From assembly GCA_900319855.1 (NCBI GenBank), contig ONQC01000021.1:1-33868 (forward strand): a stretch of 33,868 bases of DNA. The letters are read 5' to 3'. Each line of letters opens with the position of its first letter. Position 1 is the first letter of the stretch. The DNA comes from an uncultured Bacteroidales bacterium. Its GTDB lineage: Bacteria; Bacteroidota; Bacteroidia; Bacteroidales; UBA932. Position numbers and translations under genes: made by a program. The notes beneath the pieces are model-generated. The model worked only from the letters and a program-made list of their open reading frames with translations. It did not search any database and had not been told where the DNA came from. Below are positions 31,524 to 33,868 of this stretch, one piece after another.

Positions 31524-31596
31524 GGGGTATTAGCTCAGTTGGTAGAGCGTTTGAATGGCATTCAAAAGGTCAGGAGTTCGATTCTCCTATGCTCCA
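31524..31596 (+). tRNA. tRNA-Ala (anticodon GGC)
   Basis: A 73-base cloverleaf. The acceptor arms are GGGGTAT and ATGCTCC with G-T pairs. The D arm contains AGCTCAGTTGGTAGAGC, the anticodon arm TTTGA-ATGGCAT-TCAAA puts GGC in the loop, and the T arm is AGGAG-TTCGATT-CTCCT. The discriminator is A; the 3' CCA is not encoded. It reads GCC and GCU alanine codons. It has its own promoter and terminator. Confidence 0.95.
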
Positions 31597-31597
31597 C

Positions 31598-31683: not shown

Positions 31684-31797
31684 TCTTCTTCACCACCGAT
31701 GACCGCATCACGGAAAGAGAATGCAACGACAGCTATGCCAGCATGAAGGCCTGGGCCTTTGGCAAAGGCGAAGATTGGAAGCGGATCAGAGGGAGCG
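31684..31797 (+). pseudogene. Orphan coding-like fragment, no start codon
   Basis: After a TAA at 31681-31683, the plus strand encodes LFFTTDDRITERECNDSYAS followed by [18 protein letters not shown]. Codon choice (ACC, GAC, ATC, GCC, AAG) resembles the genes of this window and the composition looks like protein. It has no good start (the only ATG is mid-fragment) and runs into the antisense end of the Na/Pi gene before a TGA at 31816. I do not recognise a family. It may be the tail of a lost gene; chance is possible because it is short. Confidence 0.3.
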
Positions 31798-33453
31798 GAT
31801 GGATTTCGCGAGGTTGATCATATGGTCGGCCATACGTTCGGCATTTGAAGAGAGTTCCAGATACTGGGCTCCCACGGTAGGCGTACAGATGCCTTTTTCC
31901 ATCCGGGCGATATGGCCCTCTTCCATTCGTTTGGTATAGTCGTCAATCTCTTCCTCGATGGTATTGGCCTTCGCCAACGCATCGAAGTCCTCATTCTGGT
32001 ATGCCGCCGTGGCAGACCGGTACAACTGGTGCAGCAGCTCTTTGAGTTGGCTGATCTCGTACTTGGCATCATCAGAGAACTGCTGGGAAGAGTTGGAAAG
32101 GGCGACGGCGTACTCCACGATGTTCTCGGCATAGTCACCAATCCGTTCGATGTCCCGGACATTCCGGTAGGTACCGGAAAGGTAAGCGATATCCTTCTCT
32201 GAAAGCCCGCGTCGGCCACTCAGCCGGACCACGAATCCGATCAGCTCCCGGTTGATGAAATTGAGCTGGCGCTCATCGCGTTCGAAAGCATTCTTCTCCT
32301 TAAAATCCAGATGTACGGCCATATCCAGGCTGCGGTCGAGGTTTACCAGTGCGATGTCCGCCATCCGGAGGATTTCCCGCTTAACCTGGGAAACGGCCAT
32401 CGGAGGGGTCCGGAGCATATTCTCATCGACATAGCGCAGCGTAAACTCGGATTCGGTGACGAGCGGCTTATCCGGCACCAGCCGTTTCACCAAAGTCACC
32501 AGCGAACCCGTAAGCGGCAGCATGATGGCAACCGTCAACACATTGAAGAACGTATGGAACATCGCCAGCTGCAACTGCGGGGCGGAAGGGAAAAGGCGTT
32601 CGAATACGGAACCGTACGAAATGTCGAACCATCCCAGTCCCCAAGCCGCCAGCATGAACAAGACCACGCCGGTGCAATTGAACAGCAGGTGGATCAGGGC
32701 GGTGCGTTTGGCATTGGTGCCGCTGGTCACGCCGGCGATGACCGCCACCACGCAGGAACCGATGTTGGAACCCATCGTGAGATAGATACCCTGATTGATG
32801 CCGATAAGCCCCGTAACGACCATGGTCAGCGCGATGGATGTCATCACCGAGGAACTCTGGATAATGGCCGTGAACAGCGCGCCGAGGAGTACCAGCAAAA
32901 CCGGATTGCGGATGCCTGCCAGGAACGTCTTGACACCGTCAAGGGCGGCAAAAGACTCCATGGAACCGCTCATCAGTTCCAAACCGACGAACAGCAGGCC
33001 GAAACCGGCCAGGATACCGCCGACCGTCTTATAGGTGCTCCGTTTGGCAAAGAGGGTCATGAAAGCGCCCAACCCCGCAAAGGCGGAGAAGATGACGCTG
33101 GTAGATACGGAATTGCCCCCGAACATACCCAGCGCAACGATCTGTGCCGTTACCGTGGTACCGATATTGGCGCCGTAAATGATGGTTGCGGCCTGCATCA
33201 GGGAAATGATCCCAGCATTGACGAAGCCGATGGTCATGACGGTCGTCGCGCCGGAACTTTGGATGGCGGCTGTGCCGAGCGCGCCGATTCCGACGCCGAG
33301 AAGTTTGTTGTCGGAGGCGATGGAAAAGAGTTTTTTCAGTTTTTCAGAGCTCGCAGCCTCCAGATTGGAGCTCATCATCTGACACGCGATCAGGAATACG
33401 CCGATTCCTGCGAGAAGTGTCAGCAAAGAGGTAATGATTGCTATTAAATCCAT
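31786..33453 (-). CDS. Na/Pi cotransporter family protein with PhoU-like domain
   Basis: 555 aa. It starts [20 protein letters not shown] and contains two inverted membrane repeats, each with a QSS motif ([15 protein letters not shown] and [17 protein letters not shown]), as in the NptA / PNaS family that co-transports Na+ and phosphate. The C-terminal cytoplasmic part (about 345-550) is helical and PhoU-like, with [40 protein letters not shown] and [19 protein letters not shown] start at the ATG at 33453, the usual N terminus, preceded by a typical leader (ACAAAACAACATCA). The frame continues upstream without a stop into a kdsA fragment. A clear -7 box is not seen between the two, so expression may come from the kdsA side. 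Confidence 0.9.
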
Positions 33454-33507
33454 TGATGTTGTTTTGTAAAGTAGACGAAGATTCTCCCAGGGGTGAATCC
33501 GGTCTAA

Positions 33508-33868
33508 AGCCGCAGCCTGCAGCAGATCGGTCTGACGCGAGAGGAAAGCGGGTATCTGGATCACATCGGCTACTGCCGACACCGGGTCGCACTGCCAACT
33601 CTCATGCACATCGGTCACGATAGGCAGGCTGAACTCCCGTTTCACTTCCTCGAGGATACGCAGTCCTTCATCGATACCGATACCGCGCGCCGAAGCGGAG
33701 GTACGGTTAGCTTTGTCGAACGAGGACTTGAAATAGAGGGTGATACCCAAGTCATAACAGAGACGTCTGAGCGTCTCCGCCGTCGTCATGACGATGTCTC
33801 TGTTTTCGATAGCACACGGCCCGGCAATAAGGAACATAAAGCCATTTACGATTTGGTCATTTACGATT
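33508..33868 (-). pseudogene. kdsA: 5' fragment of kdsA (3-deoxy-8-phosphooctulonate synthase), fused in frame to the Na/Pi gene leader
   Basis: From the ATG at 33837 the minus strand encodes [17 protein letters not shown], then [37 protein letters not shown] and [19 protein letters not shown]. These are the opening beta-strands of KdsA, which makes Kdo-8-phosphate for lipopolysaccharide. KdsA is normally about 265-280 aa; identity stops after 110 codons, so the rest of the barrel and its later active-site residues are missing. The frame then passes through 18 codons of leader into the Na/Pi ATG without a stop. The frame also stays open to the window edge upstream of the ATG, so the true start may lie outside. 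A real deletion or an assembly misjoin could explain it. Confidence 0.8.
33843..33868. repeat. 15-bp-period tandem repeat at the window edge
   Basis: CATTTACGATT occurs at 33843-33853 and again at 33858-33868, a period of 15 bp. On the minus strand each unit encodes IVNDQ or IVNG in the kdsA frame. The array may continue beyond the window. Confidence 0.55.

Follow-up and report, generated by a model that had tools for sequence, protein, structure and literature searches.

The last 360 or so bases of the window, the stretch of 33,868 nucleotides analysed here, are most likely a piece of another bacterium's kdsA misjoined at a contig end, that is, an assembly artefact. Taken at face value the piece is fused to a Na/Pi cotransporter gene, and this fusion is most likely not a real feature. 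A second result concerns the genus to which the genome, an uncultured Bacteroidales bacterium (G000), belongs. Judging from profile searches across related genomes, it is likely that the genus has given up Kdo synthesis almost wholly and has kept LpxC, LpxK and a late acyltransferase.

The open frame and the affinities of its two parts

The window is the whole of contig G000:C23, and the kdsA piece thus lies at the end of a contig and not merely at the edge of a window. The genome has 2.15 Mb in 60 contigs and is estimated to be 90.89% complete and 0.32% contaminated. A sequence-only reading had described 110 codons of kdsA that continue in the same frame, by way of 18 leader codons, to the start of the Na/Pi gene, and this was confirmed. 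The frame at 31786-33837 on the minus strand encodes 683 aa without stop or frame change, with codon 110 of kdsA ending at 33508 and the Na/Pi ATG at 33453-33451. The last 361 bases of the contig consist of the kdsA piece and 31 bases of the DNA upstream of kdsA. The features are as follows.

33508..33868, minus strand: kdsA block of apparently foreign origin, 110 codons (33508-33837) and 31 upstream bases (82% DNA identity to L035; TIGR01362 match; tree)
33508..33522, minus strand: 15-nt junction tract, like both putative parents, namely kdsA codons and the LRL-stop tail of a native small ORF (identity counts)
33454..33507, minus strand: putative native leader of the Na/Pi gene, whose first bases, TTAG, correspond to the end of the congeners' small upstream ORF (alignment to L114, L115 and L117)
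31786..33453, minus strand: Na/Pi cotransporter-PhoU gene, judged native, 555 codons (TIGR00704, PF02690, PF01895; DNA identity to congeners)

Is the intact frame a sign of a real gene? It is weak evidence, because an open frame is expected by chance in about 14% of cases (one frame in three, multiplied by a chance of roughly 0.4 that 18 codons contain no stop). Upstream of the corresponding ATG, the four nearest congeners (L114-L117) keep the frame open for 3, 16, 0 and 10 codons. Residues 137-457 of the 683-aa frame match the Na/Pi family TIGR00704 with 210.4 bits, just over the curated cut-off of 210.1; PF02690 is matched too, and a PhoU domain (PF01895) stands at the C end of the product. 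Compared with a Na/Pi-cotransporter II-related protein of these families, the window gene is complete and differs only by a spurious N-terminal extension. In a set of 61 genus genomes that includes G000, 25 have a DNA match to its 5' part, some of them a weak one. The best four congeners (G008, G019, G057 and G009) are 78-83% identical to the 5' part and 74-78% identical to the whole gene over about 1,680 bases, and their DNA similarity starts at 33467-33473, 14-20 bases before the ATG. By these congeneric matches the Na/Pi gene is native to the genome. A tRNA-Ala (GGC) at 31524-31597, just beyond the 3' end of the Na/Pi gene, is the only tRNA found by ARAGORN in the window and is ordinary.

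The kdsA part is incomplete. Residues 1-110 match profile positions 3-113 of the 258 of TIGR01362 (KDO-8-P synthase) with 155.5 bits; compared with a KDO-8-phosphate synthase KdsA, the piece lacks positions 114-258, and it gives no full-length match over the curated family cut-off of 314 bits. A chimaeric gene had been one of the proposals made from the sequence; as a functional protein it would have the N-terminal part of KdsA fused to the Na/Pi transporter. The single 683-codon frame is what such a protein would need, but the piece amounts to under half of the KdsA profile, its likeness to kdsA ends near 33509, the start of the Na/Pi gene is conserved, the four nearest congeners have no long upstream frame, and the fused part is found in 0 of 14 congeneric Na/Pi loci. 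We consider a functional chimaera barely credible.

Where does the kdsA piece come from? Genome contigs were scanned with the 120 residues of the piece and the best 80 loci were taken, a set from which G000 or near-identical records may be missing. The top matches among these loci are from uncultured Bacteroidales and Paludibacteraceae, many with ruminant or horse isolate names. Among the same best 80 loci, L035 and L034 are 82% identical in DNA to the block 33509-33867, and L033 is 81% identical to it. The DNA similarity to kdsA spans from the contig end to about 33509, where it ends abruptly; for L033, L034, L042, L043 and L046 the alignment is about 10 bases longer than for the other loci listed. 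A tree of 99 rows places the fragment in a group with L038 and L033-L035 (89/86, a support below the tool's star level), within a clade of 35 rows that otherwise holds only uncultured Bacteroidales/Paludibacteraceae-type genomes (support 97/83). Note that the tree rests on a fragment of 110 residues and that its finer branches are weak. Identity to the fragment is 41-62% for twelve full kdsA genes from the family to which the window belongs, against 87-89% for the best five other loci; these 12 are drawn from 86 family genes over the cut-off, among which a closer one may exist. The kdsA genes of two congeners, G018 and G338, are 57% identical to it. No near-identical donor was found among the matches listed, the best identity being 82% in DNA and 89% in protein. 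GC content is uninformative on foreign origin, with 54% in the block and a sliding mean of 57% (SD 4) in the window. Identity and tree show that the affinity of the kdsA block is foreign, to Paludibacteraceae-like Bacteroidales.

The join and its possible causes

In three of the four nearest congeners (L114, L115 and L117) an ORF of 94-95 codons ends in LRL-stop 50-56 bases before the Na/Pi ATG, and L116 has other sequence in its place. This small ORF is conserved, has a hydrophobic start and encodes a putative protein of no assigned function. At the join the window reads CTGCGGCTTTAG, which is LRL-stop, and it keeps only the tail of the small ORF. Over the 19 nt ending in LRL-stop, the window is identical to L115 at 16/19 positions, to L114 at 13/19 and to L117 at 12/19. 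When the L115 tail was compared with all minus-strand positions of the window, 16/19 occurred once, at the join, as the single best, and 15/19 once elsewhere. The same junction is absent from related genomes as far as their upstream DNA extends: a tblastn search with the kdsA fragment gave nothing at E <= 1 in the 14 congeneric Na/Pi loci (L114-L127), 13 of which have 135-1,501 bases of upstream DNA, about 1.2-1.5 kb in 11 and only 135 and 223 bases in two. A search for the native neighbour in other parts of G000, with the upstream DNA of L114 as query, hit nothing but the start of the Na/Pi gene.

At which point does the sequence change from one parent to the other? Over the 15-nt tract (33508-33522), each of 13 kdsA loci agrees with the window at 10-14/15 positions and L115 does so at 13/15. 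The kdsA loci and L115 agree with each other at 9-12/15 positions in this tract, at 8-13/30 before it and at 4-8/19 after it, in counts that use L115 as the sole native parent and let relatives stand in for the true parents. By these counts the switch of parent lies in a short tract alike in both sequences, which fits an assembly error, a read that was itself chimaeric and cellular end-joining alike. Two parts with different closest relatives that switch at one point are what a chimaeric contig would have, and so is parental similarity at the join, but here that similarity is short (9-12/15, with relatives as proxies).

Chimaeric contigs have been described as one of the ways in which metagenome assembly from short reads fails (PMC7299287). 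The window resembles them in that sequence of two organisms appears to be joined where it is alike, and differs from the usual ones in that the apparent shared tract is short and the join is known from sequence alone. We suggest that a kdsA piece of a Paludibacteraceae-like Bacteroidales was joined to G000 during metagenome assembly or through a chimaeric read, at a place where the two sequences share a short similar tract. What truly precedes the Na/Pi gene would then probably be a small ORF some 95 codons long, like that of 3/4 of the nearest congeners, and there would be neither a truncated native kdsA nor a fusion protein, in a host lineage that as a rule has no kdsA. The join would have arisen computationally or during library preparation, not inside the cell. 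A misjoined assembly had been among the first proposals, and it gains from the foreign affinity of the piece, its abrupt end, the similarity at the join, the position at a contig end and the near absence of kdsA from the genus.

An artefact is favoured because the piece lies at the contig end, no other orthologous part of the kdsA locus was found in G000, and the 14 congeneric loci show no kdsA at this place. When 8 kb around the kdsA of L035 were compared with G000, these 359 bases were the only orthologous block found, with 40 of 62 first-look candidates scored. Two other matches, from another part of the query, have 70% identity over 367 bases (C24) and 77% over 82 bases (C28). Several observations weaken the case. 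The apparent shared tract is short (8-15 nt), and true parents may share more; the k-mers of usual assemblers are longer than that. The similarity of the tail is lower when L114 or L117 is taken as the native parent, the block's GC content lies within the range of the window, the donor was not found among the matches listed, the estimated contamination is low, and the native neighbour was not found in G000.

One alternative is a real insertion, in which a kdsA fragment of a neighbour bacterium was end-joined in the cell at the similar tract, replacing the small ORF and leaving a non-functional piece. Short similarity at the join is expected of illegitimate recombination as well, and the full kdsA genes of G018 and G338 may be acquisitions if they are not contamination. 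Against this, the foreign DNA amounts to only about 360 bases and stops right where the contig does, the scored comparison just described revealed no additional orthologous part of the donor locus on other G000 contigs, and the G018 and G338 genes are too distant from the fragment to be its source. It would also require a rare event where a known artefact suffices. A real insertion is therefore unlikely, and a misjoined contig end is the reading we prefer. In practical terms, the fusion is a warning on gene calls at contig ends, for an annotation at face value would report a damaged kdsA or a chimaeric transporter.

Kdo and lipid A genes across the genus and family

There is a further question, whether the genome ever had a kdsA of its own. 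Two overlapping sets of the genus were used, 61 genomes (including G000) and 165 genomes at least 90% complete. A kdsA over the family cut-off occurs in 1/61 (G018, 88% complete) and a full-length kdsA in 1/165 (G338). At E <= 0.001 the profile matches in 46/61 genomes, of which one is over the cut-off and the rest mostly show a weak two-part pattern; such weak two-part matches were excluded from the counts. Frames of 340-342 codons in G036 (121 bits) and G001 (60 bits) were rejected as kdsA, being far below the cut-off of 314. In the family, 86/249 genomes at least 85% complete have kdsA over the cut-off, in 17/24 genera by a hand count of a table that omits the genera of the 137 genomes without a match. 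A control genome, Bacteroides ihuae, was matched in all marker searches, with its kdsA and kdsB matches not graded by cut-off; the 86 family genomes are the better control for the kdsA search.

KdsB is over the cut-off in 1/61 genomes, with weak matches in five more, and PF04413, the N-terminal domain of WaaA, is found in 7/61, six of these without full kdsA. In the same 61 genomes LpxC is present in 59, LpxK in 59 and PF03279 acyltransferases in 57. LpxC and LpxK are both present in G000, which also has a PF03279 match of 50 bits to part of the profile, and profile searches of this 90.89% complete genome gave no match to kdsB or PF04413. Thus kdsA is absent from the genus as a rule with the lipid A genes present, the pattern of a lineage without Kdo, and that early suggestion is supported. 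LpxC frames of the genus (e.g. L148-L152) are mostly of about 300-340 codons without a FabZ fusion. An LpxC-FabZ fusion is usual in Bacteroidota.

Could the piece be the relic of a native gene after all? A recent deletion inside a native kdsA that left its 5' part joined to the Na/Pi gene would agree with the intact open frame, but the near absence of full-length kdsA from the genus, the grouping of the piece with other Bacteroidales and its low identity to the 12 genes of its own family speak against it. The version of this idea with an intact copy elsewhere fares no better. No other kdsA was found in G000, where a copy could lie in the missing part of the genome, and 163/165 genus genomes have no match at E 1e-30. 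Two matches on C53 (34.9 and 27.6 bits, both within one 370-codon frame) were rejected as intact kdsA; by their weak two-part match they look like the related DAHP synthase. A native deletion is highly improbable. Given the marker counts, the genome probably had no native kdsA to truncate.

The loss is not uniform, as the six PF04413 genomes without full kdsA and the kdsA-bearing G018 and G338 demonstrate. Those six (G013, G023, G041, G047, G048 and G052; loci L143-L146, with G048 and G013) have a PF04413 glycosyltransferase, and four have a weak kdsB-type match. In G018 a 9-kb contig (C50; L004/L177) holds kdsB, kdsA, a KpsF/KdsD-type isomerase and a WaaA-like gene together, the last below the WaaA equivalog cut-offs; this gene set may be an acquisition or contamination. 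In G338 (C2:38000-54000; L178) the full kdsA is near a 215-codon KdsD-like ORF and several ORFs unrecognised by eye, perhaps an accessory island.

Probable lipid A without Kdo

If Kdo synthesis has been given up as proposed above, lipid A would probably be finished and joined to sugars without Kdo in this genus, and the kdsA scrap in the window would be foreign and not a relic. Escherichia coli attaches Kdo ahead of the late acylation steps and normally cannot grow without it. Is there any precedent for its absence? In the available text of a survey of nine genes, Cyanobacteria and Dictyoglomi have only lpxA, C, D and B, and cyanobacterial LPS is reported without Kdo (PMC3087551). As far as that text goes, the window's genus resembles Cyanobacteria in keeping early lpx genes without the Kdo steps and, unlike them, keeps LpxK and a PF03279 acyltransferase as well (PMC3087551). 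In the accessible part of a study of infant gut genomes, CMP-KDO and KDO2-lipid A modules are named and no Kdo-less genus is mentioned (PMC9213500). A limited literature search found no description of Kdo-less Bacteroidales or of such a lipid A route there.

The near genus-wide lack of Kdo synthesis matters more than the fusion and is worth following. The genus is large and probably one of gut Bacteroidales. If the lack is true, a large genus that has lipid A genes and makes no Kdo would have implications for the purpose that Kdo serves, and also for how a host perceives such an outer membrane.
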